This document shows positions 39,260 to 55,508 of a DNA stretch of 64,000 bases, piece after piece (the first letter of the stretch is position 1; each line of letters starts with the position of its first letter). The DNA comes from Paracoccaceae bacterium (lineage in GTDB: Bacteria > Pseudomonadota > Alphaproteobacteria > Rhodobacterales > Rhodobacteraceae), in the NCBI GenBank assembly GCA_027492585.1, contig JAPUEK010000029.1, positions 1 to 64,000 of the forward strand, in the 5' to 3' direction. The notes beneath the pieces were generated by a model. It saw nothing but the letters and a program-made list of their open reading frames with translations. It was not told where the DNA came from and did not search any database. The position numbers and the translations under genes are program-made.

Positions 39260-39296
39260 ACCTTCGGATCGCGCCCCCTTTTGATCCGCCGTTCAA
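39256..39296. terminator. Hairpin between FAD pseudogene and agaZ-like gene
   Basis: TTGAAC (39256-39261) pairs with GTTCAA (39291-39296), and CGGATC (39265-39270) pairs with GATCCG (39283-39288), giving a two-part stem with a CCCCCTTTT loop. It spans both convergent stop codons and is likely a bidirectional terminator. Confidence 0.6.
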
Positions 39297-40558
39297 CGGT
39301 CGCAGGCATCGAAATAGGGTCGAAGGCTTCGGGCAACGGCCGCGCGCAGCAGCTCCGGGGCTGTCGGGGTCACGCTGCCATCCATCACCTGCGGATAGAG
39401 CGCCCCGAGATATTGCGAAATGAGCGTTTCCGGAATTTCCGCCGCGCCGAGGCTGCCCAGCAGTTCGCCGACCGCCGCTTCGGCGGCTGGATCGGTCCAG
39501 TAATAGCGGATGCGGTCCGAATAGCTGAAATGCCGTTGGAGCCGCTGATGCTCCGGGGTGCCATGGTAATATCTGGCCCAATGCTTCGGCTTTTCCAGCA
39601 TCAGCGCTTCCATCCGCACTTGCAGGGCGGCGGTGTGTCCGGGGATCAGCACTTCGGCAATCCGGTCCAGCCCGTAAAGCGCCTCGCGCAGGGAAAAGGT
39701 CAGGCCGGGACCGACCTTCAGGATGCCGAAACCATCCTTCACCAATGCCGCGAGGGCTTCAGGGGTCTGGTAATCGGTTGAATGAGCCTCGAACAGCATG
39801 GGCAGATCCGGCAGGCAGGCGACGAGATCGCGGGCAGCTTCGGGGGCATAGCCGACAACATTCTCGTTGCCGAACTCCACGCCCGGCTGCACCACCAGCC
39901 CGATGACGCGCGCGAAAGCGGGGCCAATCCCTGCGGCCTCAAAGGCAAGGCGATGCAGTTCGGCGGTTTCGCGGGCGGCTTGCGGCGCGGTGACGGTCAA
40001 CCCCTCGACCTCTTCCCATGCGCCGCCCGGCACCGGAACTTCGGTGCCGATGACATAGACCGGCGTTTCCGGCCCGGCATGTGCCTCTGCCACGGAGGCC
40101 AGTTCGGCATTGCGCCGGGCGATCACCGCATCCGGCAGCGGGACCGGATCATCGGCGCAAGCCATGCTCGCATCGAGATGGATCTTGACGAAACCCGCTT
40201 CGGCATAAGCGGCGACCATGGCGCGGGCCTTTGCCATCGCCTCTTCCGCGGGGAGGTGGGTCCAGGGGTTCGGCCCCAGATGGTCGCCGCCGAGAATCAG
40301 ATGGGTACTGTCAAAACCCTCAGTCCGGGCGATGCGTGTCACGAAGGCACGGAAATCGGCTGGCGTCATGCCGGTATAGCCGCCCTCGTGATTCACCTGG
40401 TTGCAGGTCGCCTCGATCAGGACCGGAACGCCGAGGTGCCTCCCGAGAGCAAGACTTGCACCGATCACGACAGGATGCGCCGAGCAGATCGACGGAACCC
40501 CCCGGAATATCCCGTGTTTCCGGTCCTGCGCGAGGGTGGTCAGGGAGGAAGTCGACAT
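39293..40558 (-). CDS. agaZ: D-tagatose-bisphosphate aldolase non-catalytic subunit / tagatose-6-P kinase-like (AgaZ/GatZ/KbaZ)
   Basis: 421-residue protein of the COG4573 GatZ/KbaZ/AgaZ family. Typical blocks are GIFRGVPSICSAHPVVI, LIEATCNQVNHEGGYTGM, LILGGDHLGPNPW and LLFEAHSTDYQ-like LMLFEAHSTDYQTP. ATG 40558 is chosen for length; 40576 and 40603 are alternatives. In enterics GatZ/KbaZ assist a catalytic GatY/KbaY aldolase; in Shewanella AgaZ was assigned as tagatose-6-phosphate kinase. No GatY/KbaY-like aldolase gene is present in this window. Divergent from an AgaR-like regulator and presumably induced with the amino-sugar cluster. Confidence 0.85.
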   Translation of the reverse strand: MSTSSLTTLAQDRKHGIFRGVPSICSAHPVVIGASLALGRHLGVPVLIEATCNQVNHEGGYTGMTPADFRAFVTRIARTEGFDSTHLILGGDHLGPNPWTHLPAEEAMAKARAMVAAYAEAGFVKIHLDASMACADDPVPLPDAVIARRNAELASVAEAHAGPETPVYVIGTEVPVPGGAWEEVEGLTVTAPQAARETAELHRLAFEAAGIGPAFARVIGLVVQPGVEFGNENVVGYAPEAARDLVACLPDLPMLFEAHSTDYQTPEALAALVKDGFGILKVGPGLTFSLREALYGLDRIAEVLIPGHTAALQVRMEALMLEKPKHWARYYHGTPEHQRLQRHFSYSDRIRYYWTDPAAEAAVGELLGSLGAAEIPETLISQYLGALYPQVMDGSVTPTAPELLRAAVARSLRPYFDACDR

Positions 40559-40605
40559 GTGAAACTGATCCTTCATGATTATGTTCGGGCATGAAACTAT
40601 CAATA

Positions 40606-40637
40606 ATGATCATAACAGATCAAAAATTTGATTGACA
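40606..40637. promoter_or_regulatory. AT-rich operator/promoter region, agaZ-deoR gap
   Basis: In the 127-bp divergent gap are the palindrome ATGATCAT (40606-40613), the inverted repeat ATCAAA-AA-TTTGAT (40619-40632) and an overlapping -35-like TTGACA (40632-40637) facing the regulator gene. A matching -10 is weak. The inverted repeat overlapping the -35 is a good DeoR/AgaR repressor site candidate. Confidence 0.5.
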
Positions 40638-40685
40638 GTGAGAAGTTTCGCGCTCCCAATGAGGGTGGGTTTCAGGGATGATCGC

Positions 40686-41456
40686 ATGAAGATTGATCGG
40701 GCCACCGCCATCCGGCAGCATCTGTTCGCCAAGGGTCATTCGTCGATTTCGGAAATCGCGGTTGCCGTGGGCGCATCGGAGCCAACGGTGCGGCGGGATC
40801 TTCTGGCGCTGGAGGCGGAGGGGCAGGTCGTCCGCACCCATGGCGGGGCGCAGATCGCGGATGCCTCCGGAACCGAGATCGCCTTCGAGAGCCGCGAGCA
40901 GATCAATCTCCCGCTGAAACGCGCAATCGGCGAGGCGGCCTATGGCCTGCTGCGGCCCGAAACCTCGATCTTCCTCGACGCAGGAACGACAGTGCTGCAA
41001 CTGGCCCGGCGGCTGCGGCTGAACCCGCTGCCGTTGCGGGTCTTCACCAATTGTCTGCCCGTGGCGCAGGTGCTGATGGGCGCGCCGGAGATCAGCGTCA
41101 CCCTTCTCGGCGGGAGCCTGCGCCGCGAAAATGCTTCGATGGTGGGGATGCTTGCCGAGGCAGCGCTGGAGCGGCTCTGGTTCGATCAGCTCTTCCTCGG
41201 TGTCGGGGCCATTGCCGCAGATGGCACGATTTCGAGCGCCGATGAGCAGGAGGCACGGATCAATGCGCTGATGCTGAACCGTACGACGGCGGCGGTGATC
41301 CTGACGGATGCGGATAAATTCGACCGGAGGCTGACCTATGATGTCGCCCGGCTCGGCGCCGGCTCGCATGTGATGACGGATGCACGGCTTTCGCCGGAGT
41401 GGCAGGGGCGGCTCGCCGATCTTGGCGCGCGCCTGACCCTTGCGGATGCCCGGTGA
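40686..41456 (+). CDS. DeoR-family repressor (AgaR-like)
   Basis: 256-residue DeoR regulator from ATG 40686. The N-terminal helix-turn-helix is ISEIAVAVGASEPTVRRDLL with the following wing VVRTHGGAQI. The sugar-phosphate-binding domain has the DAGTT loop (IFLDAGTTVLQLA) and NCLPVAQVL, then LGGSLRRENASMVG. This is the usual repressor type for amino-sugar and tagatose pathways, released by a sugar phosphate. It shares one base with the following kinase gene (TGATG). Confidence 0.9.
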   Translation: MKIDRATAIRQHLFAKGHSSISEIAVAVGASEPTVRRDLLALEAEGQVVRTHGGAQIADASGTEIAFESREQINLPLKRAIGEAAYGLLRPETSIFLDAGTTVLQLARRLRLNPLPLRVFTNCLPVAQVLMGAPEISVTLLGGSLRRENASMVGMLAEAALERLWFDQLFLGVGAIAADGTISSADEQEARINALMLNRTTAAVILTDADKFDRRLTYDVARLGAGSHVMTDARLSPEWQGRLADLGARLTLADAR

Positions 41457-42379
41457 TGGACCGGGTTCTGGGCATGGACGGCGGCGGCACCAAGACCGAG
41501 GTGGCGGTGGTCGCACGTTCCGGCGCCGTCGAGATGCGGTTTCGGACCGGGGGTCTTGATCCGACCAAGGGCGCAGGCTGGGAGCAGGTGCTGGCGGAAA
41601 TTTCCGGGAAAGTCGGCCCGGTCTCGCAAGCGGTGCTGGGCCTGCCCTATCATGGCGAGGTTCCCGCCATCTCGGCCCGCCAAGCCACGGTTGCCGCGGC
41701 GATCTTCGGGCCTGAGAGCCATGTCCTCAACGATGTGGAAGTCGCCTTCGACGGCGCGCTCGGCGGCGGAGACGGAGTGCTGATCCTTGCCGGCACCGGC
41801 TCGATGGCCTGGGCGCGCGGGCCGCTTGGCACCTGTCGCGTCGGCGGCTGGGGGGATGTCTTCGGCGATGAGGGCTCGGCCTACTGGATCGGGCGCGAGG
41901 CGCTGTCGCGCATCAGCGCGGCGCTGGACGGGCGGCGCGAGGATCCTGGTTTTGCGGGTGCGATGCTGGCCCGGATGGGCATTGGCGCGGCCGATCTGAT
42001 CGGTTGGACCTATGCGCCCGAGGCGCCGCGGGCGCGCATTGCGGCGCTGGCCACGCTTGTCTCGGAACTGGCGCGGGCGGGCGATGCCGATGCCACCGGG
42101 CTTATGGCCCACGCCTCGGAGGAACTCGCGGTGCTGGGTCTGACTGCGAGGCGGCTCAGCGGTGCCGGTGGGGGCTGGAGTTATGCGGGTGGCGTGATGG
42201 CCGATCCGGCACTCCGGGAGCATCTGGCCGCGCGAATGGGAAGCGTACCGCTGGAGCCGATGCTGACACCAGTGGGCGGGGCCGTATTGAGGGCGGCAAG
42301 GCGCGCGGGATGGGTGACCGATGCTGCCTTCCTCCGCCGGCTGAAGGCGGGACTGGAAAACGAGAACAACGCTCCATGA
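41456..42379 (+). CDS. BadF/BadG-type ATPase, probable N-acetylhexosamine kinase
   Basis: 307-residue ASKHA-fold ATPase of the BcrAD/BadF/NagK family. The phosphate-1 loop GMDGGGTKTEVAV is at the N-terminus, LNDVEVAFDGA near residues 88-98, and ILAGTGSMAW and GGWGDVFGDEGSAYWIGREAL follow, the latter typical of N-acetylglucosamine kinases. Coupled to the AgaR-like gene by TGATG and followed by a binding protein. Probably phosphorylates an imported GalNAc, GlcNAc or free hexosamine; the stereochemistry is inferred from the other genes. Confidence 0.85.
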   Translation: MDRVLGMDGGGTKTEVAVVARSGAVEMRFRTGGLDPTKGAGWEQVLAEISGKVGPVSQAVLGLPYHGEVPAISARQATVAAAIFGPESHVLNDVEVAFDGALGGGDGVLILAGTGSMAWARGPLGTCRVGGWGDVFGDEGSAYWIGREALSRISAALDGRREDPGFAGAMLARMGIGAADLIGWTYAPEAPRARIAALATLVSELARAGDADATGLMAHASEELAVLGLTARRLSGAGGGWSYAGGVMADPALREHLAARMGSVPLEPMLTPVGGAVLRAARRAGWVTDAAFLRRLKAGLENENNAP

Positions 42380-42398
42380 CGGGGCCAAACAGGGTGAC

Positions 42399-43640
42399 AT
42401 GATGAAAAGACGCCAATTTCTGATCTCCGCTTCCGCCCTTGGCCTTGCCGCCGCGATGCCGGGGGCAAGCTTTGCACAGGGGCCGCTGCCGGTGCTGCTG
42501 CCACCCTGGGTGACGCTGCCGAAGGAGATGACCGACAGCTACGCCGGCGGCACGCTTGACGTCCAGACCCTCGGCTGGGACGAGATCCGCACCCGGATCG
42601 TGACCTCCATGGTCGCCGATACCGCCCCGGCAAGCGTCACGGAAATGGACTGGAGCTGGGTCGGGCAGTTCGGCATGGCGGGCTGGTATGACCCGCTGGA
42701 CGATCTGCTGAGCGATGAGCTGAAAGCGGATCTGCCCACCACCTCGATCTTCACCTACGACGGAAAGCTGATCGGCGCGCCCTACAACAACGACTTCCGG
42801 GTGATGATCTACAACAAGGCGCATCTCGCCGCCGCCGGGGTCGCCGCCGCGCCGAAAACCATGGATGAGCTTCTGGAAGCCGCCCGTGCCGTGAAAAAGG
42901 CCGGGGTCGCGGACCATCCGATCGCCCTGCCGCTTTCGGCCAGCGAGGGCGCGGCGACTGCCTGGTATCTGCTCACCAAGGCCTTTGGCGGCGATCTTTT
43001 CGATGCGGATTTCACCCCGCTTTTCACCGACCCTGCCTCGGCCGGGTATCAGGCCATGGCTTTCGAGGTGGCGGCGCTGAAGGAAGGTCTGATCGACCCT
43101 GCGGCGACCAGCCTGAAGGATGTCGAGGTGCAGGAACTGTTCAAGGCCGGCAAGGCAAGCTTCGATCTGGCCGGGTGGGCGGGCAATCTCGCGGTCTATA
43201 CCGATCCGTCGAAATCCGGGGTGGCGGCGGATGCGGCGGCGGCGCTGATGCCGAATGTCTCGGGCGTCTCACGCACTTTTGGCCTGCCTGGCGCGCTCGG
43301 CATCCCGGTCAATGCGACCGACAAGGACGGGGCGGCGGCCTTCATCCTCTGGATGCTGGAGGAGAAGACCATGGCCGACAACTATCGCCTGCTCGGCAAC
43401 CTGCCGACCCGGCTTTCTGTGCTTCGCAGCCTCAACGAAGAGGGCAGGCTCGCGCAGGGCGATGTCCTGATCGCGCAGGCCGAACTGGTGGAGCCGCTCT
43501 TTGCCCAAGGCACGCCCGGCTGGTATCCGGAATTCTCCGGGGCCGTGGCCGCTGCGCTGAACGCCGCCGCGAAGGAGCAGATCACGGTGGACGAGGCGAT
43601 GGCCCAGATCGCCGAAGCCGCAGCCGCCGCGCAAGAATAA
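42399..43640 (+). CDS. ABC transporter family-1 binding protein (set 1)
   Basis: 413-residue sugar-binding protein with an N-terminal leader bearing MMKRRQFLISASALGLAAA, a twin-arginine-like start, and cleavage near ASFAQ. Family-1 features include MIYNKAHLAAAGV and the C-terminal AALNAAAKEQITVDEAMAQI helix. Followed 16 bp later by two permease genes. Probably binds an amino sugar or its oligosaccharide. Confidence 0.9.
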   Translation: MMKRRQFLISASALGLAAAMPGASFAQGPLPVLLPPWVTLPKEMTDSYAGGTLDVQTLGWDEIRTRIVTSMVADTAPASVTEMDWSWVGQFGMAGWYDPLDDLLSDELKADLPTTSIFTYDGKLIGAPYNNDFRVMIYNKAHLAAAGVAAAPKTMDELLEAARAVKKAGVADHPIALPLSASEGAATAWYLLTKAFGGDLFDADFTPLFTDPASAGYQAMAFEVAALKEGLIDPAATSLKDVEVQELFKAGKASFDLAGWAGNLAVYTDPSKSGVAADAAAALMPNVSGVSRTFGLPGALGIPVNATDKDGAAAFILWMLEEKTMADNYRLLGNLPTRLSVLRSLNEEGRLAQGDVLIAQAELVEPLFAQGTPGWYPEFSGAVAAALNAAAKEQITVDEAMAQIAEAAAAAQE

Positions 43641-43655
43641 GCGGCGGGCGGGTCC

Positions 43656-44549
43656 ATGGCGGTTCTGGCGAGGTTCCTTCCATCCCGCGAGGCGCGGCTC
43701 GGCCTGACGCTGATCCTGCCGGTGGCGCTGATCATGGGGGGGCTGGTTTTCCTGCCCCTCCTGGCGACGCTGATCGACAGCCTGTTCCGTATCGCGCCGA
43801 TGAAGCCCGGCACCCCTTTTGTCGGGCTGAAGAACTATGCCGATCTGATGGGGGATGCGAAAGTCACCACCGCCTGGGTCAATACTGCCGCCTATGTGGT
43901 GATGACCGTGGTGATCGAGACGGTGGGCGGGCTGGCCATGGCGCTGCTCCTCAACGCGGTCACGGTCGGGCGGCGCTGGCTGCTGGCGATCATGGTGCTG
44001 CCCTGGTGCCTTCCGCCGGTCGTCAATGCGATCATCTGGATGTGGATCTACAATCCGGCCTACGGGCCGCTGAACGGCCTTCTGATGACAGTCGGCCTGA
44101 TCGACGGCCCGCAGGTCTGGTTCAACGACCGTGGGACCGGGCTGTTCCTCGTCTCGCTGGTTCACGCCTGGCGCATGATGCCGCTGACGGCGATCATCCT
44201 CTTCGCCGCACTGCAATCCATCCCGGCGGAGCTTTACGAGGCCGCACGCCTCGATGGTGCTGGGGCGTTGAAGCGGCTGCGGCAGATCACCCTGCCGCTG
44301 ATCGCGCCGGGGCTGACCATCGCCCTGTCGCAATCCACCGTCTTTGCCGTCAACCTTTTCGACGAGGCCTGGGTGTTGAACGGGGTGTCGATGGATACGA
44401 GATCGGTGATCATCCAGGTCTATGTCACCGCCTTCCAGAACCTGAAATTCTCTGCCGGTATGGCGCTTTCTGTGCTGGCGATGGTGGTCTCTCTGGCGGT
44501 CTCGGCGCTCTATGTGCTGCGGGTCTACCGCGAAACGAGGTTCGAATGA
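43656..44549 (+). CDS. Sugar ABC transporter permease (set 1, MalF-like)
   Basis: 297-residue permease with six membrane segments and the coupling loop IPAELYEAARLDGAGALKRL. It starts at 43656 soon after the binding-protein stop and overlaps the next permease gene by ATGA. Pairs with the next gene and, by inference, with the ATPase at 47.7 kb because no ATPase is adjacent. Confidence 0.92.
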   Translation: MAVLARFLPSREARLGLTLILPVALIMGGLVFLPLLATLIDSLFRIAPMKPGTPFVGLKNYADLMGDAKVTTAWVNTAAYVVMTVVIETVGGLAMALLLNAVTVGRRWLLAIMVLPWCLPPVVNAIIWMWIYNPAYGPLNGLLMTVGLIDGPQVWFNDRGTGLFLVSLVHAWRMMPLTAIILFAALQSIPAELYEAARLDGAGALKRLRQITLPLIAPGLTIALSQSTVFAVNLFDEAWVLNGVSMDTRSVIIQVYVTAFQNLKFSAGMALSVLAMVVSLAVSALYVLRVYRETRFE

Positions 44550-45427
44550 CCCCGCGCCGCCGGATCAGCCAGTGGAGCCGCCGGGCCGGTCTTTGCCTTG
44601 GCGCTGCGGTGATGGTGCTGTGGAGCCTTGCGCCGATCTACTGGTCTTTCCTGACCAGCATCACCCCGCCGGGCGGGCTGGTTTCCTCCGGGTTGCGGCT
44701 CTGGCCGGAGGCCGCCACGACAGAGCATTTCGCCAAGCTCTTCGGCGCCACCTCCGTCTCGCAGGGTAACGAGGTGCAATCGGTCTGGCCGCAGTTCTCG
44801 GCCGCTTTCGCCAACAGCCTGATCACCTCGGGGCTGGCGACGGTGGTGACGGTGATCCTTGCGGCCTTCGGGGCCTGGGCCTTCGTGCGGCTGAGCTTTC
44901 CCGGCAAGAACGTGATCTTCATCGCCGTCGTGGCGACGCTGGCGATCCCCGCCTATACGGTGATGATCCCGCTTTACCGGCTGATGATCGCGGCGGGGCT
45001 GATCGACACCTATGCCGGGGTGACGCTGATCTATGTCTCGGCCTTCCTGCCGCTGGCGTTGTGGCTGATGCGGTCCGTCTACCAGTCGATGCCGCTGTCG
45101 CTGGAAGAAGCGGCCTGGCTGGACGGAGCGTCGAAGCTGCGGGCCTTCGTGCAGGTGGTGCTGCCGCTTGCCGGGCCGGGCCTTGTCGCCTGCGCCATCC
45201 TGACCTTCCTGTCGGCCTGGGGCCAGTTCATGGTGCCGCTGGTCTTCTCTCCCACGCTGGCGACCAAGCCGCTGACCGTGCTGATCCCGGAATTCGTGAC
45301 CCGCAACTATGTGGACTACGGGCTGATGAATGCCGCCGGGATGGTGGCGATCGTGCCGCCGATGATCCTTGTTCTCTTCCTCAACCGCTTTCTCGTGCAG
45401 GGCCTCATGGCCGGAGCCGGGAAATAA
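44546..45427 (+). CDS. Sugar ABC transporter permease (set 1, MalG-like)
   Basis: 293-residue permease; six membrane segments, coupling loop MPLSLEEAAWLDGASKLRAF. A larger periplasmic loop between segments 1 and 2 (roughly residues 40-90) is typical of MalG relatives. Start ATG 44546 overlaps the previous stop. The wide open frame that begins at 43175 is an artefact of another frame. Confidence 0.92.
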   Translation: MTPRRRISQWSRRAGLCLGAAVMVLWSLAPIYWSFLTSITPPGGLVSSGLRLWPEAATTEHFAKLFGATSVSQGNEVQSVWPQFSAAFANSLITSGLATVVTVILAAFGAWAFVRLSFPGKNVIFIAVVATLAIPAYTVMIPLYRLMIAAGLIDTYAGVTLIYVSAFLPLALWLMRSVYQSMPLSLEEAAWLDGASKLRAFVQVVLPLAGPGLVACAILTFLSAWGQFMVPLVFSPTLATKPLTVLIPEFVTRNYVDYGLMNAAGMVAIVPPMILVLFLNRFLVQGLMAGAGK

Positions 45428-45441
45428 CTGAAAGGCCGACG

Positions 45442-46395
45442 ATGCCCACACTCACCGAAACCGTCATCCGCGCGCAGCTGCCCTACTGGCAGGATGCGTT
45501 GCGACAGGCCTTGCCGCGTGTTGCCGCGCGGACTGTCGTGCTGACCGGCTGCGGCACGTCCTATTACCTTGCCCAATCCCTGGCCTGCGCCTTCAACGCC
45601 GGGGGTCAGAGGGCGATTGCCGTTCCGGGCGCGGAATGGGCGCGGCGGTCCGGCGTCTATCTTGCTGATCCCGAAGGCACGACCGTCATCGGCCTTTCCC
45701 GGTCCGGCACCACGACGGAGACGGTGCAGGCCATCACCAACAGCCGGGCGCGCGGCTGGCATACCATCGCCATCTCCTGCGAACCGGGTTCGACCATCCT
45801 CGGGGCGGCGGATGAGGCGATCTGCCTGCCGACCGACCCGCGCGAGGGCATCGTCATGTCCGTCTCCGCCAGCCTGATGTATCTGGCCGGTCTGCGGATG
45901 GCCGGTCTTGTCCTGTCCGAGGCGATTGTCCCTGCCGCCGCCACTGCGCTGGAGCGGATGGAGGGCGCTGATGCCCTTTTGCCCGGCCGCCGCCATTTCG
46001 TCTACCTCGGTGCGGGTGCGAACTACGGCATCGCCACCGAAGGCTGCCTGAAGCTGCAGGAGATGAGCATCTCTTACAGCCAGGCCTTCCATCCGATGGA
46101 ATATCGCCACGGGCCGGTTTCGCTCATCGACGACAGCTCGCTTGCCGTGATGCTTTATTCCGAGGAAACCGCCGCCGAAGAGGCCGCGCTTGTCGCCGAG
46201 CTTCAGGCCAAGGGCGCGCGGGTGATCGGCTTCAACGGTCCCGGAGACCTGCGGATCGACCTTGGCCTGACCGGCCCCGCCGCGGCGCTCGCCTGCCTGC
46301 CCGCACTTCAACTGTTGGGGGAAAAGGTTGCCCTCGGTAAAGGTATAAACTCCGAAACCCCCCGCCACCTCACCAAGGTCGTGGTTTTGCAATAG
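45442..46395 (+). CDS. agaS: SIS-domain sugar-phosphate isomerase/deaminase (AgaS-like)
   Basis: 317 residues with two SIS domains: VVLTGCGTSYYLAQSLACAF near 32-51 with GLSRSGTTTETVQAI after it, and YLGAGANYGIATEGCLKLQE in the second half. This arrangement matches AgaS (galactosamine-6-phosphate deaminase/isomerase) and the isomerase half of GlmS; no glutaminase domain is present. It would convert galactosamine-6-P to tagatose-6-P and ammonia, fitting the AgaZ-like gene. A glucosamine-6-P or frucoselysine-type substrate is the alternative. Confidence 0.82.
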   Translation: MPTLTETVIRAQLPYWQDALRQALPRVAARTVVLTGCGTSYYLAQSLACAFNAGGQRAIAVPGAEWARRSGVYLADPEGTTVIGLSRSGTTTETVQAITNSRARGWHTIAISCEPGSTILGAADEAICLPTDPREGIVMSVSASLMYLAGLRMAGLVLSEAIVPAAATALERMEGADALLPGRRHFVYLGAGANYGIATEGCLKLQEMSISYSQAFHPMEYRHGPVSLIDDSSLAVMLYSEETAAEEAALVAELQAKGARVIGFNGPGDLRIDLGLTGPAAALACLPALQLLGEKVALGKGINSETPRHLTKVVVLQ

Positions 46396-46404
46396 GAGGC
46401 TTCA

Positions 46405-47724
46405 ATGGCCAAGATCTGTCTCATCGGCGCGGGCTCTACCGTCTTCGCGCAGAATATTCTCGGCGATGTGTTGTCGAACCCTGAACTGGCCGACAGCGAA
46501 ATCGCGCTCTTCGATATTGATGCGGAGCGGCTTTCCACCTCGGAGATCATGGCGCGGCGCATCGGCACCACGCTCGGGCTGAAGGGCCTCCGCGTCACCG
46601 CCACCACCAACCGCCGCGCGGCGCTGAAGGATGCGGATTTCGTGATCCTGATGATGCAGATCGGCGGCTACAAGCCCTCGACCGTCATCGACTTCGACAT
46701 TCCGAAGCAGTTTGGCCTGCGCCAGACCATCGCCGATACGCTGGGGGTCGGTGGCATCTTCCGGGCGCTGCGGACGATTCCGGTCGTGCTCGATATCGCC
46801 CGCGACATGGCCGAGGTCTGCCCCCGCGCGCTGATGATGAACTATGTCAACCCGATGGCCATGATCACCTGGGCGATGCAGGAATCCTATCCGCAGATCG
46901 CCTATGTCGGGCTGTGCCATTCGGTGCAGGAAACTTCCGGCCATCTGGCGCGGGTGCTGGGTGAGGATATCGCGCAGATCGACTACCGCAGCGCCGGGAT
47001 CAATCACGTCGCCTTCTTCAGCAAGTTCGAAAAGCGCCTGCCGGGGGGCGGTGTCGAGGATCTCTACCCGCGCCTGCGCGAAATCGCGGCCAGCGGCAAT
47101 TACCCCGAAGGCGACAAGGTGCGCTTTGCGGTGATGAAGCATTTCGGCTATTTCGTCACCGAAAGTTCGGAGCATTTCAGCGAATATACCCCGTGGTTCA
47201 TCAAGCGCGGGCGGGAGGACCTGATCGACCGCTTCCAGGTGCCGCTGGATGAATATATCCGCCGCTGCGAAGAACAGATCGCGGGCTGGCATGAACTGCG
47301 CGCCGAGCTGGAGGACGAGGCCGCCCCGATCGAGGTCTGCAAATCCAACGAATATGCCGCCTCCATCATTCATGGCATGGTGACCGGCACCAATCACCTC
47401 ATCTACGGCAATCTGCGGAACAACGGGCTGATCGACAACCTGCCCGCCAATGCTGCCGTGGAGGTCCCCTGCCATATCGACCGCAACGGCATCCAGCCGG
47501 TTCGCGTCGGCTCCGTTCCGCCGCAACTCGCCGCCATCATGCGGAGCCAGATCAACGTGCAGGAACTGACGGTTCTGGCCGCGCTGACGGGCAAGCGCGA
47601 CCACATCTATCACGCGGCCATGATGGACCCGCATACCGGGGCGGAGCTGTCGCTCGACGAGATCCGGGCGCTTTGCGACGCGCTGATAGCGGCGCATGGC
47701 AACTATCTGCCTGCATATCGGTAA
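46405..47724 (+). CDS. Glycoside hydrolase family 4 (MelA-like)
   Basis: 439-residue NAD+- and Mn2+-dependent glycosidase. The Rossmann loop is GAGSTVFAQN (8-17), the metal/active-site motif CHSVQ is at 171-175 and INHVAFF at 199-205 supplies a metal-ligand histidine. CHSVQ is the alpha-galactosidase/alpha-galacturonidase subtype signature, so a galacto-configured alpha-glycoside is likely. Cytoplasmic, hence acting on imported oligosaccharides. Nine bp after the SIS gene in the same operon. Confidence 0.9.
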   Translation: MAKICLIGAGSTVFAQNILGDVLSNPELADSEIALFDIDAERLSTSEIMARRIGTTLGLKGLRVTATTNRRAALKDADFVILMMQIGGYKPSTVIDFDIPKQFGLRQTIADTLGVGGIFRALRTIPVVLDIARDMAEVCPRALMMNYVNPMAMITWAMQESYPQIAYVGLCHSVQETSGHLARVLGEDIAQIDYRSAGINHVAFFSKFEKRLPGGGVEDLYPRLREIAASGNYPEGDKVRFAVMKHFGYFVTESSEHFSEYTPWFIKRGREDLIDRFQVPLDEYIRRCEEQIAGWHELRAELEDEAAPIEVCKSNEYAASIIHGMVTGTNHLIYGNLRNNGLIDNLPANAAVEVPCHIDRNGIQPVRVGSVPPQLAAIMRSQINVQELTVLAALTGKRDHIYHAAMMDPHTGAELSLDEIRALCDALIAAHGNYLPAYR

Positions 47725-47733
47725 GGGGCTGAG

Positions 47734-48789
47734 ATGGCGAAGGTTTCGATCAGCGACGTGACCAAGAGCTATGGCATTACCAAGGTGATGCACGGCGTCA
47801 GCTTCGAGGTGCAGGATGGTGAGTTCGTGGCGCTGGTCGGGCCTTCCGGTTGCGGCAAATCCACGCTTTTGCGGATGATCGCGGGGCTTGAGGACATCAC
47901 CTCGGGCCAGGTTTCCATCGGGGAGCGTGTCGTCAATGATGTCGAGCCGAAGGAGCGCGACATCGCCATGGTCTTCCAGAACTATGCGCTCTATCCGCAT
48001 ATGACCGTGGCCGAGAACATGGGGTTTTCGCTGCGCCTGCGTGGAACCCCCAAGGCGGAGGTCAGCCGCGCCGTGGCGGAGGCGGCGGAGATCCTCGGGC
48101 TGACGCCCTATCTCGCCCGTCATCCGAAGGCCCTTTCGGGGGGGCAGCGTCAGCGCGTCGCTATGGGGCGGGCCATCGTGCGTCATCCGGCGGTCTTCCT
48201 GTTCGATGAACCCCTGTCCAACCTCGATGCGGCCCTGCGGGTGCAGATGCGGGCGGAAATCCGCAATCTGCACGAACGGCTCGGCTCGACCTCGATCTTC
48301 GTGACCCATGATCAGGTGGAGGCGATGACCATGGCCGATCGGATCGTGGTCATGCGGGCCGGGCGGCTCGAACAGGCCGGGCCGCCGCTGGAACTTTACG
48401 ACCGCCCGGCCAATGCTTTTGTGGCGGGGTTCATCGGCTCGCCGGCGATGAACCTCCTGCCGGCGCAGGCTGCCGGGGGCCATGTGACGCTGGCGGATGG
48501 TTCGGTTCTGCCGATCACATCGGCGGCGGAGGGCGCAGTCCAATACGGCATCCGTCCCGAGCATCTGGATCTGGTGCCGCCGGAGACGCCGGGTGCGATG
48601 ACCGGCACCGTCGGGCTGATCGAAAGCACCGGAACGGCGATGTTCGTGGCCGTCCAGACGCAGGGGCCGAAGGTCAATGCCCTCTTCTCCGACCGGCCGG
48701 CTCTGCATCGCGGCGACAGGGTGGGTCTGCGTCCGAAAGCCGGACACAGCCATGTGTTTCATACCGGAACGGGGGAGCGTCTGGCATGA
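47734..48789 (+). CDS. Sugar ABC transporter ATP-binding protein (UgpC/MsmX type)
   Basis: 351-residue CUT1 ATPase: Walker [10 protein letters not shown], signature [16 protein letters not shown], Walker [13 protein letters not shown], and a C-terminal TOBE/OB regulatory domain after [10 protein letters not shown]. The only ATPase of the cluster, located between two complete binding-protein-plus-permease sets, so it may energise both, as MsmX does in Gram-positives. Overlaps the amidohydrolase gene by 4 bp. Confidence 0.93.
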
Positions 48790-49874
48790 CCGGCGATCTG
48801 CCCCTGTCGCAATTCCGGCCGAGGTCGCGCCTTTCCGTGCCGGAAACCCGTATCACAAGGCCCGACCGCCCGTTCATCGACGCGCATAACCATCTCGGCG
48901 CCTTTGGCGGCGGCTGGGATCAGCGCGATCCGGCAGCCTTCTTTGCCCGGCTGGATGAGGCGGGCGCGGTTCACTATGTCGATCTGGATGGCGGCTGGGG
49001 CGAGGATGTGCTCGATGACCGCCTGCGTCGCTTCAAATCCCATGCGCCGGAGCGTTACCGTGTTTACGGCGGTGTCGATTGGGGCCGATGGGCGGAGGAA
49101 GGTCACGCCTTTGCCGAACGTTCGGCGGCGCGGCTCGCGGCTCAGGCGGCGCGCGGCGCGCAGGGGCTGAAAATCTGGAAGCCTTTCGGTCTCCATGTCA
49201 CCGACGACCGCGGGGCTCTGGCGAAGATCGACGATCCGCGGCTGGGTCCGATCTGGGCCAGGGCAGGGGAGCTTGGTCTGCCGGTGATGATCCATATCGC
49301 CGATCCCGTCGCCTTCTTCGACCCGTTGACGCCCGAGAACGAACGCTGGGATGAATTGCACGCCCATCCCGACTGGCACTTCCCCTCCCCGCCGTTTCCG
49401 CCTTTCGACGCGCTTCTTGGTGCCTTTGCCCGGCTGGTGCAGCGTCACCCCGCCACCACCTTCATCGGCGCCCATGTCGGCTGCTATGCGGAGAACCTCA
49501 CCTGGGTTTCGGACCTGATGGAGACCTGTCCGAACCTTTACGTCGATATTTCAGCCCGCATTTCGGAGCTTGGCCGCCAGCCCTATTCGGCACGGCGTTT
49601 CTTCCTGCGCCACGCGGACCGCATCCTCTTCGGCACCGATGCCGGACCCGATCTTGAAACCTATGCGATCTATGCCCGGTTCCTCGAAACCGGGGACGAA
49701 TATTTCAGCTACGGCCCCGGAGACAGTCCGGGTCAGGGCCGCTGGAGGATCTACGGCCTGCACCTGCCCGAAGACGTGCGAGAGAAGATCTACTTCGCCA
49801 ATGCCGCGCGGCTGTTCGGGCTGGAAACCGGCCCGATGCCGGAAGACACCACACATCAACAGGAAAGGACATGA
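48786..49874 (+). CDS. Amidohydrolase-2-type metal-dependent hydrolase
   Basis: 362-residue TIM-barrel hydrolase. The metal site starts with FIDAHNHLG (HxH), continues with [11 protein letters not shown] (Lys), VMIHIADP (His), [10 protein letters not shown] (His) and ends LFGTDAGPD (Asp). The family includes decarboxylases, lactonases and amidases. No signal peptide, so cytoplasmic. Inside an amino-sugar operon it could open a sugar lactone or remove an N-acyl group, but it is not a NagA/AgaA-type deacetylase. Confidence 0.82.
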
Positions 49875-49875
49875 C

Positions 49876-51126
49876 ATGAGACTGTTCGCTTCGACCGCGC
49901 TTGCGCTTGCGCTCGGTCCCTTCGCTGCGGCGGCACAGACTGACATCACCTTCCAGCTCTGGGGCAGCCCGCAGGAAGGCGAGGTCTGGGCGCGGGTCGC
50001 CGAGGCCTTCCACGCCGGGCATCCCGATATCAACGTCAAGGTCGAAGTGGCCGATTGGGACAGCTACTGGGAAAAGCTGCGCGTCCTCGTCTCGGGCGGC
50101 ACGCCGCCGGATGTCTTCGCCATGGATGCGCCGCTTTATCCTGACTGGCAGTCGCGCGGAGCGCTTCTGAACCTGCAACCCTATCTCGATGCCGACCCTT
50201 CGGCACTGGACGGGGTGTTCCCGCTCACGCTGGAGGCCTACAAGACCAAGGACGGCTATTTCGGCCTGCCGCGCGATTTCCAGGCGATCGTCCTTTACTA
50301 CAACAAGGACATGTTCGATGCCGCCGGGGTCGCCTATCCGACCGACGACTGGAGCTGGGATGACCTGCGCGCGGCGGCCAAGGCGCTGACCCTCGACAAG
50401 GACGGCAACGGCAAGACGGATCAATGGGGTTTCTGGGCGGAAGCCTATGATCAGGAACCGTTCTGGGGCAGCGTGATCTGGTCCTATGGCGGGGATATCG
50501 TCGATGCGCCGGCCGGAAAGACACTGATCGGCAGCGATGCGGCGGCGGCGGGCTTTGAATTCATCCGCGCCATGTGGCTGGACGACAAATCCATGCCGAC
50601 CCAGAGCCAGCTTGCCCAGTTCGGCTATGACGGCTTCCTGTCGGGCATCTCGGCCATGGGGGTTTCGGGCCATTGGTCGGTGCCGGATTACGCGGCGGCA
50701 GGGCTGAACTTCGATGTGGCGCCGCTGCCGAAAGGTCCTGCCGGGCGCGCAACCGGGGTGAACAGCGCGGGCTTCGTCATCTCCGCCAGGACGCCCAATC
50801 CCGATGCCGCCTGGCAGTTCGTGAAATTCGCCACGGGAGAGGTGGGCCAGACCGAGCTTGCCAAGCTCGGCTTTGCCGTGCCGATCCGCGAAAGCGTGGC
50901 GAAAAGCGACGCCTATCTGAAGCAGGCCGTTCCGATCCGGCACCAGTTGTTCGTCGATGCGCTTGCCTATGCGCGCACCAAGCCCGTGTTCCGCGGCTAC
51001 GAGGACTGGGCCTCGGCGGTCGGGGATGCGCTTGCGACGATCTGGGACGGGGATGCCGATGTCGCCGATGCTCTGGCGCAGGCGGTGAAAGATGGCGATG
51101 CCGCGCTTGCCAAGGCCGCGGAATAG
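49876..51126 (+). CDS. ABC transporter family-1 binding protein (set 2)
   Basis: 416-residue periplasmic binding protein with a Sec signal peptide (MRLFASTALALALGPFAAAA) and a UgpB/MalE-like body (ITFQLWGSPQEGEVWARVAE, IVLYYNKDMFDAAGV). The cluster's second binding protein, only distantly similar to the first, suggesting a different ligand, perhaps a different chain length or acetylation state. Start 49876 follows the preceding gene by one base. Confidence 0.91.
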   Translation: MRLFASTALALALGPFAAAAQTDITFQLWGSPQEGEVWARVAEAFHAGHPDINVKVEVADWDSYWEKLRVLVSGGTPPDVFAMDAPLYPDWQSRGALLNLQPYLDADPSALDGVFPLTLEAYKTKDGYFGLPRDFQAIVLYYNKDMFDAAGVAYPTDDWSWDDLRAAAKALTLDKDGNGKTDQWGFWAEAYDQEPFWGSVIWSYGGDIVDAPAGKTLIGSDAAAAGFEFIRAMWLDDKSMPTQSQLAQFGYDGFLSGISAMGVSGHWSVPDYAAAGLNFDVAPLPKGPAGRATGVNSAGFVISARTPNPDAAWQFVKFATGEVGQTELAKLGFAVPIRESVAKSDAYLKQAVPIRHQLFVDALAYARTKPVFRGYEDWASAVGDALATIWDGDADVADALAQAVKDGDAALAKAAE

Positions 51127-51134
51127 GGGCGGGC

Positions 51135-52016
51135 ATGAACGGTCTTCGTCCGCTCGGCCGGGAAAAGCTGTGGGTGCTGGTGCTTCTGGCACCCACGCTG
51201 CTTGGCCTCCTGCTCGGCACGTTCGGGGCGATTTTCTCGACCCTCGGGCTTTCCGTCTTCGACTGGGACCTGCTGACGAAGCCCGAATTCGTCGGGTTGC
51301 AGAATTATGCCGAACTGCCGGAAAGCCGGCTTTTCGGGAAGGCGCTGTGGAATACGGTGACCTTCTCGGCGCTCTATGTGCCGCTGGTCATGGCGGCGTC
51401 CTTCTGTGTCGCGCTTCTGCTGAACCGGGGGGTGCGGGGCGAAAAGCTGTTCCGGGTGCTCTATTTCCTGCCCGTGGTCTCTTCGCCCACCGCCGTCGGC
51501 CTCCTTTGGATCTGGATCTATTCCGAGGACAACGGCGTGCTGAACGCCATGCTCGGGATGCTCGGGGTGGAGCCGGTCAAATGGCTGGGCGCCAAGATGG
51601 TGCTCTGGTCGGTGGTGATCGCCAACACCTGGGGGGCCATCGGCGAGGGGATGATCATTTTCCTCGCCGGGCTCCAGGCCATCCCGCGCGAGCATTACGA
51701 GGTCGCCCGGCTCGATGGGGCGACCACCTGGCAGCGGCTCTTCTACGTCACCCTGCCCGCCATGGCGCCAAGCCTGTTCTTCCAGGCGGTTCTGGCGACG
51801 ATCCACGCCTTTCAGGCCTTCGACTACATCTATATCCTGACGCGGACCGGCAATGGCAATTCCTCCTTTCCGACGCTGGTGTTCTCGATCTACCGCGAAG
51901 GCTTCCGCTTCTTCCGCATGGGGGATGCCGCCGCGCAGGCGGTGGTGCTGACCCTGATCATTCTGGGCTTCACCTGGGTCTATTTCCGGATGCAGCGACG
52001 CTGGGGGACGACATGA
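51135..52016 (+). CDS. Sugar ABC transporter permease (set 2, MalF-like)
   Basis: 293-residue permease with six membrane segments and coupling loop IPREHYEVARLDGATTWQRL. ATG 51135 follows a GGGGCGGG stretch eight bases after the binding-protein stop. Overlaps the next permease by ATGA. Confidence 0.92.
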   Translation: MNGLRPLGREKLWVLVLLAPTLLGLLLGTFGAIFSTLGLSVFDWDLLTKPEFVGLQNYAELPESRLFGKALWNTVTFSALYVPLVMAASFCVALLLNRGVRGEKLFRVLYFLPVVSSPTAVGLLWIWIYSEDNGVLNAMLGMLGVEPVKWLGAKMVLWSVVIANTWGAIGEGMIIFLAGLQAIPREHYEVARLDGATTWQRLFYVTLPAMAPSLFFQAVLATIHAFQAFDYIYILTRTGNGNSSFPTLVFSIYREGFRFFRMGDAAAQAVVLTLIILGFTWVYFRMQRRWGTT

Positions 52017-52831
52017 AGCTGAAACCGGCCGATCTTCTGGCTTTCGCCGTCCTTCTTGCCGGGGCGCTGATGATGGTGGCGCCCTTTGTGTGGATGATCT
52101 CCACCTCGCTGAAACCCGCGGCCGAACAGTTCGACATGAGGCTGATCCCCGCGACGCCGACACCGGAGAACTATTCCAGGATTTTCGAGCTGATGCCCTT
52201 CCACCTGCTGCTGTGGAATTCGGTCAAGATCGCGGCGATCTCGACCTTCGGGCAACTGCTGACCTGTTCGATGGCGGCCTTCGTCTTTGCGACCGTGCGG
52301 TTTCCGGGGCGGAACCTGCTGTTCGTGATCCTTCTGATCACGCTGATGATCCCCGCGCAGATCACCTCGATCCCGCAATTCATCATCTTCAAGGCACTCG
52401 GTCTCTATGGCACGCAGGCGCCGCTTTACCTGCCGAGCTTCATGGGCGGGGCCTTCGGCACCTTTCTCATGCGGCAGTATTTCCAGACCATCCCGATGGA
52501 GCTGGCGGAAGCGGCGCGGATCGACGGCGCCAGCCTGATCCGGATCTTCTTCACCATCTATCTGCCGCTGTCGAAACCCGCCCTTGCGGCCTTTGCGATC
52601 TTTGCCTTCCTGTTTTCGTGGAACGATCTGTTTTCGGCGCTGATCTATCTGCCCTCGGATCTGGAGCAGACCACGCTGACCGTCGGGCTGGCCCTGTTCC
52701 AGACCCAATATGCGGCGCAATGGCCGCTGATGATGTCTGCGGCCCTCGTCTCGGTGGCGCCGATGATCCTCGTGTTCATTCTGGCGCAGCGCCACTTTGT
52801 CAGTGGCGTCGCGGCAAGCGGCCTGAAGTGA
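52013..52831 (+). CDS. Sugar ABC transporter permease (set 2, MalG-like)
   Basis: 272-residue permease with six membrane segments and coupling loop IPMELAEAARIDGASLIRIF. Followed 11 bp later by the secreted GH114 gene, linking this transporter to extracellular polymer cleavage. Confidence 0.92.
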   Translation: MKLKPADLLAFAVLLAGALMMVAPFVWMISTSLKPAAEQFDMRLIPATPTPENYSRIFELMPFHLLLWNSVKIAAISTFGQLLTCSMAAFVFATVRFPGRNLLFVILLITLMIPAQITSIPQFIIFKALGLYGTQAPLYLPSFMGGAFGTFLMRQYFQTIPMELAEAARIDGASLIRIFFTIYLPLSKPALAAFAIFAFLFSWNDLFSALIYLPSDLEQTTLTVGLALFQTQYAAQWPLMMSAALVSVAPMILVFILAQRHFVSGVAASGLK

Positions 52832-52842
52832 AGGGAAACGCG

Positions 52843-53622
52843 ATGCGTCTTTTGCCCGGTCTTGCTCTCGCCCTTCTGGCGGCGCCGGTTCTGGCCCAGA
52901 CCGGACCCTTGCCGGAGGGTGGGGTGGCCGACTATCAGCTGGGCGGCGGGTATCCGCCTCCGTCCGGCGTCACCATTGTCGTGCGCGACAGTACGGACAC
53001 ACCCGAGCCGGGCTACTTCAACATCTGCTATGTCAACGGTTTCCAGACCCAGCCGGGCGACACCTGGCCGAAGGACCTTCTGGTGCGCGGTGCGGATGGC
53101 GAGCCGCTGGCGGATGAGGGCTGGCCGGACGAGTTCCTGCTCGACACGTCGACCGAAGCGGCCCGGCGGGCCAATCTTGAGCGTCTTGCCCCGGCATTGG
53201 AGGCCTGCGCGAAGAAGGGCTTCAGCGCGGTCGAGTTCGACAATCTGGACAGTTACACCCGGTCGGGCGGCCGTCTGGAGATGGAGGATGCCCTCGCCTT
53301 CGCCAAGCTTCTGGTCGGCGCCGCGCGCGCGCTCGGCCTGCCGGCCGGTCAGAAGAACAACGCGGAATTCGGGACCCGTGGCCGAGACGAGGTGGGCTTT
53401 GCCTTCGCCGTCGCCGAGGAATGTCACGTCTGGCAGGAATGTGCGGCCTATACCGGGGTCTATGGCCGCGGACAGGTGCTCGGCATCGAATATGCCGGCG
53501 AGCTGCGCGGCACCTTTGCCGAGGCCTGTGCCGATCCGGCGCGTCCCGGCAGCCTGATCCTGCGAGACAGGCTCCTGAAACCCGCCGGGGCGGAGGGCCA
53601 TGTCTTCGACGCCTGCCGCTAG
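52843..53622 (+). CDS. GH114-like endo-alpha-1,4-polygalactosaminidase
   Basis: 259-residue secreted protein: signal peptide MRLLPGLALALLAAPVLAQ, then a compact TIM-barrel domain of the glycoside hydrolase 114 type (VADYQLGGGYPPP, FNICYVNGFQTQ, KGFSAVEFDNLDSY at 125-138 with Glu131 and Asp133, AGQKNNAEF). Characterised relatives cut alpha-1,4-linked galactosamine polymers, including the hydrolase domains related to PelA and fungal Ega3. Several cysteines may form disulfides. Last gene of the cluster; the probable extracytoplasmic first step. Confidence 0.82.
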   Translation: MRLLPGLALALLAAPVLAQTGPLPEGGVADYQLGGGYPPPSGVTIVVRDSTDTPEPGYFNICYVNGFQTQPGDTWPKDLLVRGADGEPLADEGWPDEFLLDTSTEAARRANLERLAPALEACAKKGFSAVEFDNLDSYTRSGGRLEMEDALAFAKLLVGAARALGLPAGQKNNAEFGTRGRDEVGFAFAVAEECHVWQECAAYTGVYGRGQVLGIEYAGELRGTFAEACADPARPGSLILRDRLLKPAGAEGHVFDACR

Positions 53623-53693: not shown

Positions 53694-55508
53694 ATGACCC
53701 CGCAGCGCCCGAAGGAAAACCGAACAGCCGTGGACCCGATGTCGCAAATCCTGTCCCTGCGGGATGTCGCAAGCCAGATCGACGCCTGCAACGATCTGGA
53801 GGCGACGCTGAAGTGCCTCATCGCCGCGACCTGTCGCCATGCGGGCTGGGCCATGGGCTCCATCATGGCAATCGACGCGCAGGGGGGCTACGCGCAGGTT
53901 CTGGCCCGCCATGACCCGACACTGATCGCCGCGCAACTGGCCGACAGATGGGCGCTCGCTTCCAGCCCGACGCTGGTGGCGCTGAGGCGCAACGAGCCGG
54001 TCCATATCCGCGATGCCCATTTCGCCGACGCCTATCCGGGCTACCGGCAGGATGCCCGCGACCGCGACTATCGCACGGTTCTGGTGCTGCCGATGAACTG
54101 CAAAGATGCGCTCGACCGCCCGATGGTGCTGACGGTGATCTCGCGGCAGGTGAAGGAGGTGGCGGAGGCCGATCTGGCCCTCCTCGGCACGATCATCCAT
54201 CTCGGTTCCATTGCTGTCGAGCGCACGCACCGGCAGGCGGTGCAGATGCGGGTGACGGAAGGGCTGCGGCAGGCACTGGCCCGCCAGACGCAGCTTCTGG
54301 ACCATCTGCTGGGCGAGGGGTCGCTTGGCGTGCTCGCGGAAAGGGTCGGGGCGCTTTTCCCCGATCCGGTGCTGGTGGTCGATCTTGGCGACAAGCGGAT
54401 CATCGCTGGCCGCTCTCCCGATCCGGCGCTTTTCAGCGACGAGGATTGGCAGATCGCCGTCGTCACGCGCCACAGCCGCCCGATCCTGCGGGCGGCGCAG
54501 GAGGGTCTCTCGGGTCCGTTTGCGCTGCGGCTGTCCGATCCGGGGCGGGAGATCGTGCTGCCGGCCCATATCGAACCCCTGTTCGTGGGCGCGCAACTTT
54601 CCGGCGCGCTGATCCTTTTCCCGGCGGAAGGTCGCGCCGGCGCTACCGATCTGCCGCTTCTGGAAAGCGCGCGGTTGGCGCTGAGCCTGCAACTCATGCA
54701 CAACCATGTCCTCGCGCGGTCCGAAACCCATGTTCTTTCCGATCTTTTCCGGGATCTGGTGGAGGGGCGCTGGAAAGCCCTGGCCGACATCCAGAAACGC
54801 GCCCATCACACCGGGCTCAATCTGCTGGAGGACCAGCAGATGATCGTGCTGGATTTCGCGGGCCATGCCGGAACGCAGGGCGCGAGACTGACCGAGTTCA
54901 AGCGCATCGTGATGCGTGTCTCGCCGCCGGATGCGGCGGCTGCGGTGATCGTCGCGCTTGATGACCGTATCGCCTGCCTGCTGCCTGCCGATACCGAATT
55001 CCGCCGCAACCGTATCCGAAGCTTCGCCGAGACATTGGCCGCCGAACTGGGCCGCACGATCGAAAAGCCGCCTGTCGTCGTGCTGGGTGGCCTGTGCCGC
55101 GCGCCCGAGGATTATGCGGTGACATGGAAGCGCTGCGATCGCCTGATTGGAATCGCACGGACCTTCGGGCTGAACGGGGTGCTGATGACCAGTGGCTCCG
55201 GCCCGCTTGAGATGCTGGTTGCGGCGCTCGAAGCGGGCGAGTTGCGGAGCTATATTGATCAGAGCATCGGCCCGATTGCCCGATACGACCTTGAGCACGG
55301 CACGGCCTATCTGGACACGCTGGCCGCCTTCCTGCGCGAGGGATGCCGCGCCCAGCCCTGTGCGGATGCGATGGGCCTGCATGTTTCGACCCTGCGCTAC
55401 CGGCTGGCGCGGCTGTCCGAGCTTTTCGGGGTCGAGATCGACTCGCCGGAGAAAAGGTTCGATCTGGAGCTGGCCATCCGGTTGCAGATGATCACCCGCA
55501 GCGAGTAG
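53694..55508 (+). CDS. PucR-type transcriptional regulator with GAF domain
   Basis: 604 residues from ATG 53694 (a start at 53739, MSQILSLRDVASQI, is equally possible). An N-terminal GAF-like domain (about 15-175, GWAMGSIMAIDAQGGYAQVL) and a middle sensor/GGDEF-like region precede the C-terminal PucR helix-turn-helix (AYLDTLAAFLREGCRAQPCA, HVSTLRYRLARLSELFGVEI). Such proteins activate amino-acid, purine or polyamine catabolism. It is transcribed toward the amino-acid ABC transporter, which it probably controls. Frame extension to 53421 overlaps the GH114 gene and is rejected. Confidence 0.86.
   Translation: MTPQRPKENRTAVDPMSQILSLRDVASQIDACNDLEATLKCLIAATCRHAGWAMGSIMAIDAQGGYAQVLARHDPTLIAAQLADRWALASSPTLVALRRNEPVHIRDAHFADAYPGYRQDARDRDYRTVLVLPMNCKDALDRPMVLTVISRQVKEVAEADLALLGTIIHLGSIAVERTHRQAVQMRVTEGLRQALARQTQLLDHLLGEGSLGVLAERVGALFPDPVLVVDLGDKRIIAGRSPDPALFSDEDWQIAVVTRHSRPILRAAQEGLSGPFALRLSDPGREIVLPAHIEPLFVGAQLSGALILFPAEGRAGATDLPLLESARLALSLQLMHNHVLARSETHVLSDLFRDLVEGRWKALADIQKRAHHTGLNLLEDQQMIVLDFAGHAGTQGARLTEFKRIVMRVSPPDAAAAVIVALDDRIACLLPADTEFRRNRIRSFAETLAAELGRTIEKPPVVVLGGLCRAPEDYAVTWKRCDRLIGIARTFGLNGVLMTSGSGPLEMLVAALEAGELRSYIDQSIGPIARYDLEHGTAYLDTLAAFLREGCRAQPCADAMGLHVSTLRYRLARLSELFGVEIDSPEKRFDLELAIRLQMITRSE

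Follow-up and report, generated by a model that had tools for sequence, protein, structure and literature searches.

A predicted galactosamine catabolic operon carrying GH4 and GH114 glycosidases in a Paracoccaceae bacterium

Introduction

What is the function of a bacterial gene block that joins a GH114 endo-galactosaminidase-like protein and a GH4 glycosidase to enzymes of amino sugar metabolism and to two ABC transporters? Such a block occupies positions 39293-53622 of a 64,000-nucleotide stretch of DNA from a Paracoccaceae bacterium (contig JAPUEK010000029.1, positions 1 to 64,000), the whole of which is referred to here as the window. The source genome comprises 4.14 Mb in 100 contigs. 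Pel and galactosaminogalactan (GAG), the type of galactosamine (GalN) polymer proposed as the substrate in an initial annotation, are medically important polymers of biofilms and fungi. Carbohydrate utilization loci generally combine a secreted endo-enzyme, an importer, a cytoplasmic exo-enzyme, and a repressor; the block has the same plan and differs in its substrate class, a GalN polymer. No GH114-bearing GalN utilization locus, and no bacterium eating Pel or GAG through a dedicated operon, was found in the open-licence literature, which was covered mostly as titles and the beginnings of abstracts.

We consider it rather likely that the block works as an inducible operon with which the bacterium consumes an α-linked GalN-rich polymer or its oligomers. 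If so, an endo-galactosaminidase coupled to uptake and catabolism would supply polymer-degrading enzymes, and bacterial GH114 would gain a nutritional role.

Results and Discussion

The block contains 14 genes. The gene for a GatZ-like protein on the reverse strand lies opposite a 13-gene row on the forward strand, which runs from a DeoR repressor through a BadF kinase, a solute-binding protein, two permeases, a SIS protein, GH4, an ATPase, an amidohydrolase, a second solute-binding protein, and two further permeases to GH114. The successive intergenic gaps from DeoR to GH114 are -1, 19, 15, -4, 14, 9, 9, -4, 1, 8, -4, and 11 bp, so that no gap exceeds 19 bp (range -4 to 19). GH114 is the final gene, and the next gene, for a PucR-type regulator, lies 107 bp downstream. 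Start positions were picked by eye for GatZ (40558), DeoR (40686), BadF (41456), permease 1b (44546), SIS (45442), solute-binding protein 2 (49876), permeases 2a (51135) and 2b (52013), and GH114 (52843). All parts named in the initial annotation were present, with Pfam scores above the curated cut-offs against which they are quoted below and with the CHSV motif in GH4; missing from its gene list are the genes at 47734-48789, for an ATPase of the UgpC/MalK type, and at 48786-49874, for an Amidohydro_2 protein. The gene set is more than a chance assembly because it is kept in distant genomes.

The predicted pathway would begin outside the cytoplasm, where the GH114 protein (52843-53622; PF03537, 148 versus 27), judged by its family, catalytic residues, and fold, would cleave α-1,4-galactosamine stretches. 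GalN oligomers would enter through solute-binding protein 2 (SBP2; 49876-51126) and permeases 2a (51135-52016) and 2b (52013-52831), and GalN through SBP1 (42399-43640) and permeases 1a (43656-44549) and 1b (44546-45427). The binding proteins match SBP_bac_1 (114 versus 26 and 143 versus 26) and the permeases BPD_transp_1. The single UgpC/MalK-type ATPase (ABC_tran; PRK11650, 486.4 versus 432) is probably common to both transporters and would power both. GH4 enzymes are exo-glycosidases with an NAD+/Mn-type mechanism, and the GH4 protein (46405-47724; PF02056, 210.7 versus 23.2; PF11975, 195.3 versus 24.1), whose clade sits with GalN genes, is predicted to be a cytoplasmic exo-α-galactosaminidase that would free GalN. 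The BadF protein (41456-42379; PF01869 BcrAD_BadFG, 75.9 versus 31.5) would form GalN 6-phosphate (GalN-6-P), which the SIS protein (45442-46395; PF01380, 96.2 versus 25) would deaminate and isomerize to tagatose 6-phosphate (Tag-6-P) and ammonium. GatZ (39293-40558, reverse strand; GatZ_KbaZ-like, PF08013, 571.1 versus 26.7) would convert Tag-6-P to fructose 6-phosphate (Fru-6-P). A DeoR-family repressor (40686-41456; DeoRC, 134.7 versus 31.8; HTH_DeoR) would act from a conserved site in the GatZ-DeoR gap.

The core of this pathway recurs widely. An alignment of two SIS sequences, used in a pattern-based scan of species genomes, gave 96 SIS relatives, from which 80 loci were kept; 58 of these (L043-L100, at least 46% identity) were taken as orthologous and 22 weaker ones were dropped. 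Gene content was determined by tblastn with the window proteins as queries (E 1e-8). Several of the 58 loci end at contig edges, so that the counts are lower bounds, and distant GH114s can escape these queries. Matches were found to DeoR in 55 loci, to GatZ and to BadF in 52 each, to the ATPase in 44 (ATPase-like), and to SBP1 and both permeases 1 in 38. SIS, GatZ, and DeoR occur together in 50/58, and the complete core with SBP1 and its permeases in 34/58. GH4 is much rarer (5/58), as are Amidohydro_2 (3/58) and GH114 (1/58). The hosts include Rhizobiales, Rhodobacterales, Thalassospira, Pseudomonas, and Acetobacteraceae, and the closest named relatives of the window SIS protein are from Cypionkella (77%) and Pseudorhodobacter (74%). 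Judged by this gene content, the core function of the block is likely to be galactosamine catabolism. In genome G013 (L034 7214-13381) a DeoR-SIS-GatZ trio, 43-56% identical to the window proteins, adjoins a TRAP-type transporter, named by eye, which may be an alternative uptake route into the same pathway.

Curated models refine the roles of the core proteins. The SIS protein, read as AgaS in the initial annotation, scores 67.1 bits against the AgaS model TIGR02815 (cut-off 529.2); its best model is GlmD (NF041128), at 128.8 against a cut-off of 580. It is closer to GlmD than to AgaS and fails both. Its PDB matches are 2cb0 and 1j5x. The DeoR protein is not AgaR by model (NF040755, 158.3 versus 260). 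The BadF protein scores 64.5 against the NagK model (cut-off 370) and is likely to be the GalN kinase.

PF08013 proteins were earlier labeled aldolase chaperones or Tag-6-P kinases, and the original study of the Agrobacterium tumefaciens protein is said to have described a Tag-6-P/Fru-6-P epimerase. The window GatZ passes the curated AgaZ/GatZ model TIGR02810 (582.2 versus 568.8 bits) and has PDB matches 3txv and 2fiq. C4-epimerase activity between Fru-6-P and Tag-6-P has been reported for Escherichia coli GatZ/KbaZ, together with family-specific active-site residues (PMC11907403), and PMC12118421 keeps the kinase proposal on record. All six residues of that set are kept, C25, E49, H93, E173, H259, and K281 of the window protein aligning with C20, E44, H88, E171, H257, and K279 of E. 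coli GatZ. Because these diagnostic residues are conserved, we read GatZ as a Tag-6-P 4-epimerase yielding Fru-6-P, which is more likely than the AgaZ step as first annotated. The A. tumefaciens and E. coli epimerases catalyze the same conversion, their upstream sugar being galactitol (PMC11907403).

Compared with the E. coli aga/gam system (AgaS, KbaYZ, and a phosphotransferase system (PTS); PMC3668189, PMC12118421), the block would share the SIS-protein step from GalN-6-P to Tag-6-P. An ABC transporter and a kinase replace the PTS, the AgaA deacetylase is missing, two glycosidases are added, and the pathway ends with an epimerase, whereas that of E. coli ends in Tag-1,6-bisphosphate aldolase. 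Among the 14 genes Pfam detected none of the E. coli-type markers PTS, AgaA/NagA, and AgaY. The D-galactosamine genes predicted in Sinorhizobium meliloti (smb21216, smb21217, smb21218, smb21219-21221 for the transporter, smb21373, and smb21374; PMC4961836) resemble the block in joining ABC uptake to a short cytoplasmic GalN route. In contrast to the window, neither GH4 nor GH114 is named in the passage that predicts these genes. Galactosamine uptake has also been inferred for bean bacteroids (PMC6421345). A GatZ encoded on S. meliloti pSymB (L239) is 60% identical to the window GatZ, resembles PDB 3txv, and would be the product of one of the smb2137x genes; it is preceded by genes for a PfkB-type kinase and a ribose-type ABC transporter, named by eye. 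Among the matches listed (the best 60 of 585 and the best 40 of 70), neither SIS nor SBP1 had an orthologue from S. meliloti.

No NagA match was found in the window or in 53/58 loci. Free GalN therefore suits the pathway better than GalNAc, and the ABC-type loci look GalN-directed. Of the two substrates named initially, GalN and GalNAc, a GalN-rich one is still expected and GalNAc fits less well. A substrate made of acetylated GalNAc polymer, deacetylated in trans by a NagA-like protein (G000:C34) or by the operon amidohydrolase, is unlikely. The NagA-like gene exists elsewhere in the genome, with a score of 209.7 bits under a cut-off of 225.65, and the Acetobacteraceae loci L092, L093, L095, and L098 have NagA near the core, L097 being the only other locus of the 58 with a match, a weak one. 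Against this explanation stand the missing NagA matches, the specificity of the characterized GH114 enzyme Ega3 for deacetylated stretches (PMC12054363), and the distribution of Amidohydro_2, which among the 58 loci occurs only with GH4 (3/5 GH4-bearing loci) and never with the bare core. The four Acetobacteraceae loci may be GalNAc versions of the pathway, with a NagA-like deacetylase.

The Amidohydro_2 protein itself (PF04909, 82.4 versus 26.4) is predicted to be a metal-dependent hydrolase. Matches lie beside GH4 in L045, where the copy has an in-frame stop near its end, and in L051, L060, and L225; there was none in L046, L048, L224, L227, or L228. In a low confidence structural model (pLDDT 65.8) the fold resembles the ACMSD/decarboxylase/hydrolase group, and a PDB sequence search at 0.001 returned no match. 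A 74% identical relative in another genome (G208, L039 15024-16085) adjoins glpD/glpK-like genes, named by eye.

The window GH4 has both Pfam domains and the CHSV motif, at residue 171. A GH4-ATPase-(amidohydrolase)-SBP2-permease module follows SIS in five of the 58 loci (L045, L046, L048, L051, and L060) and on a Pelagibacterium plasmid (L225), with GH4s 79-84.5% identical to that of the window; SBP2 adjoins GH4 in each of the six. In L051, L060, and L225 no SBP1 or permeases 1 adjoin the core, so the closest source of substrate for the GalN enzymes there is the GH4 module; in L225 a further ABC set adjoins GatZ. On Rhizobium johnstonii pRL12 (L224) a 66% identical GH4 without adjoining SBP2 precedes DeoR-BadF-SBP1-permeases-SIS-GatZ-ATPase. 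At E 1e-60, 11/385 class genomes have a GH4 match; the other ten are 50-61% identical and have no SIS, GatZ, BadF, or DeoR match at 1e-6 within 12-13 kb around each. The gene content and context support a galactosamine catabolic operon, with GH4 tied in and GH114 as a member.

In a midpoint-drawn tree of 21 rows, the eight alphaproteobacterial GH4s from GalN loci cluster away from MelA with moderate support (84/98), and two Deinococcus GH4s, discussed below, branch off deeply on their own. Position 259 is occupied by Ser in 10/10 GalN-locus GH4s and by Ala in 11/11 others, including E. coli MelA; the aligned residue of LplD (one structure) is also Ala. The second GH4 of L158 (29%) was left out of both the tree and the residue count. 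Of seven clade-diagnostic columns, 259 alone has a residue common to both Deinococcus proteins. Ser259 may be of early origin in this deep Deinococcus branch, hence convergence is not claimed. From clade and context, the GH4 protein probably acts on GalN-containing oligomers; we know of no named GH4 with exo-α-galactosaminidase activity. That it is instead an ordinary α-galactosidase, acting on a mixed Gal/GalN polymer such as fungal GAG with galactose leaving by another pathway, seems improbable. It does pass the α-galactosidase subfamily model (639.4 versus 486), and GAG is composed of Gal, GalNAc, and GalN (PMC12054363), but the grouping apart from MelA with Ser259 argues against this role, as does the lack of any galactose-pathway family among the 14 genes (Pfam).

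The N terminus of the GH114 protein resembles a signal peptide when read by eye, and the protein is predicted to be secreted. Its Asp-133 and Glu-192, invariant in 7/7 aligned GH114s, align with the catalytic pair Asp-189/Glu-247 of Ega3 (PMC12054363). The first three PDB matches to a model of modest confidence (pLDDT 65.5) are Ega3, GH191, and PelA (best 6oj1, E 4.8e-11, TM 0.61). The predicted fold and the catalytic residues are as in the GH114 enzyme Ega3, GH191, and the GH166 enzyme PelA. Ega3 and PelA are tied to polymer synthesis in PMC12054363, whereas the window GH114 lies in a catabolic gene row. It is the single GH114 match of its genome. A role in Pel synthesis was rejected, PelF scores in the genome being 28.1 and 24.8 against a cut-off of 100. 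GH114 is probably the polymer-cutting entry enzyme of the pathway.

Three gene arrangements place GH114 within a GalN locus: the tight row of the window, Phyllobacterium myrsinacearum DSM 5892 (L046), and a pair of Deinococcus plasmids. L046 has a GH114, 42% identical to that of the window, which is encoded on the GatZ strand at a distance of 205 bp from GatZ and at the opposite side of the cluster. The conserved GH114-GH4-SIS-AgaZ neighborhood that the initial annotation proposed to look for finds no support as a general feature: it is rare, seen in the window and 1/58 GalN loci (tblastn), with 0/47 other GH114 stretches. These 47, made up of 11 from a family sample, 28/28 from a class sample, and eight from GalN-core genomes, hold 48/60 of the GH114 matches outside the source genome, and many end at contig edges. 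The other 12 are in five weak family-sample genomes and seven rows from GalN-core genomes, among them a triple-domain protein of Yoonia. On the basis of the 47 stretches, we reject a general partnership of GH114 with GalN genes. At the level of genomes, GH114 occurs in 10/48 searched GalN-core genomes (nine above cut-off) versus 28/385 class genomes, the source genome included (Fisher p 0.005, uncorrected for relatedness).

Several observations weigh against the operon as a polymer utilization system. The SIS protein scores under both the AgaS and GlmD cut-offs, GH4 scores as an α-galactosidase, and the Amidohydro_2 gene has no place among the proposed steps. GH114 was found in just one of the 58 related loci, that of Phyllobacterium; the 47 other GH114 stretches have no SIS, GatZ, GH4, BadF, or DeoR match at E 1e-10, and short stretches around the remaining 12 have none at 1e-6. 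A 70% identical GH114 (genome G091, L019 3858-10617) lies beside a ribose-type ABC transporter, an FGGY kinase, and two SDR genes, identified by eye. In the four GH4-bearing genomes searched, GH114 is located elsewhere in two (L048 and L060) and was not found in two (L045 and L051), a frequency (2/4) not significantly different from that in other GalN-core genomes (8/44, p 0.19). Attempts in PMC12054363 to produce bacterial GH114s yielded no usable soluble protein, so that the activity of the family in bacteria rests on older work.

Some of these observations suit an alternative in which the operon takes up and degrades GalN and a small α-galactosaminide or mixed Gal/GalN oligomer freed by others, with GH114 as a recently arrived passenger that serves another purpose. 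In its favor, 57/58 related loci, including 4/5 GH4-bearing ones, have no GH114 match, and GH114 relatives are located elsewhere. It is nevertheless unlikely, given the 11-bp spacing of GH114 as the last gene in its row, the GH114 of the L046 cluster, the GH114s in Deinococcus gene rows, and the rough expectation, for genomes taken as 3.7 Mb, of 0.02 GH114 genes across all 58 loci.

The two Deinococcus loci, L227 and L228, surfaced in a plasmid search as the best SIS matches outside the alphaproteobacteria. On the D. psychrotolerans plasmid (L228, 5564-18223) the order is DeoR, GH114, two permeases, SBP, BadF, SIS, class II aldolase, PfkB-type kinase, a second GH114, GH4, and a Gfo/Idh/MocA protein. 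The plasmid of Deinococcus sp. AB2017081 (L227, 5648-18812) has the same order up to PfkB, its GH114 carrying CBM9, followed by SBP, a GH4 annotated as a "hypothetical protein", and Gfo/Idh/MocA. Identities to the window proteins are 53-54% for SIS, 42-46% for BadF, 50-53% for DeoR, and 39-40% for GH4. Neither stretch has a GatZ match. The class II aldolase and PfkB kinase, neither of which passes a curated tagatose-specific cut-off, suggest an alternative exit from Tag-6-P; a kinase-plus-aldolase ending agrees with Tag-6-P as the intermediate. These loci provide the strongest evidence for a functional link of GH114 and GH4 to GalN catabolism. Of the further Thermus/Deinococcus GH114 loci examined, four contain an annotated PelF gene and resemble loci for polymer synthesis. 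The Gfo/Idh/MocA protein may be a GH109-like enzyme, which is a guess.

A broader reading, for which we see about even chances, is that α-galactosaminan utilization loci were assembled at least twice, with bacterial GH114 serving in feeding and with GH4s marked by TESSxHFSEY acting as exo-α-galactosaminidases. Such loci would have two endings, a GatZ epimerase in Alphaproteobacteria and a PfkB kinase plus aldolase in Deinococcota.

The divergent regulatory region (40559-40685) contains a conserved TGATTGACAgTGA at 40629, which overlaps a TTGACA -35-like hexamer. GATTGACA is present on either strand in 21/26 divergent GatZ/DeoR gaps, the window counted in; in 100 letter shuffles the commonest 8-mer reached at most four gaps. 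TGATTGACA has a single occurrence in the window. Conservation of GATTGACA may be due partly to the -35 box and partly to common descent. A conserved GATCA-N(4-8)-TGATTGACAgTGA element at 40618-40641 is a candidate DeoR operator overlapping the -35 hexamer. A scan for promoter- and terminator-like sites found no more than in shuffled sequence.

GH114 also occurs in other settings. The regions around GH114 in Azospirillum, Phyllobacterium sp. T1293, Streptomyces KN37, and D. grandis have no GalN gene set. The Pleomorphomonas GH114s (L160-L162) are at contig edges, away from the GalN locus, and in the two that were read the neighboring gene was judged BioY-like by eye. Yoonia maricola has a 1096-amino acid open frame with three GH114 domain matches (G454:C5:140267-142786). 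Downstream of GH114 in the window, the PucR-type regulator (53739-55508) has GAF, GGDEF_2, and HTH_30 domains and is followed by an SBP_bac_3-type transporter; this is probably a unit separate from the GH114 row.

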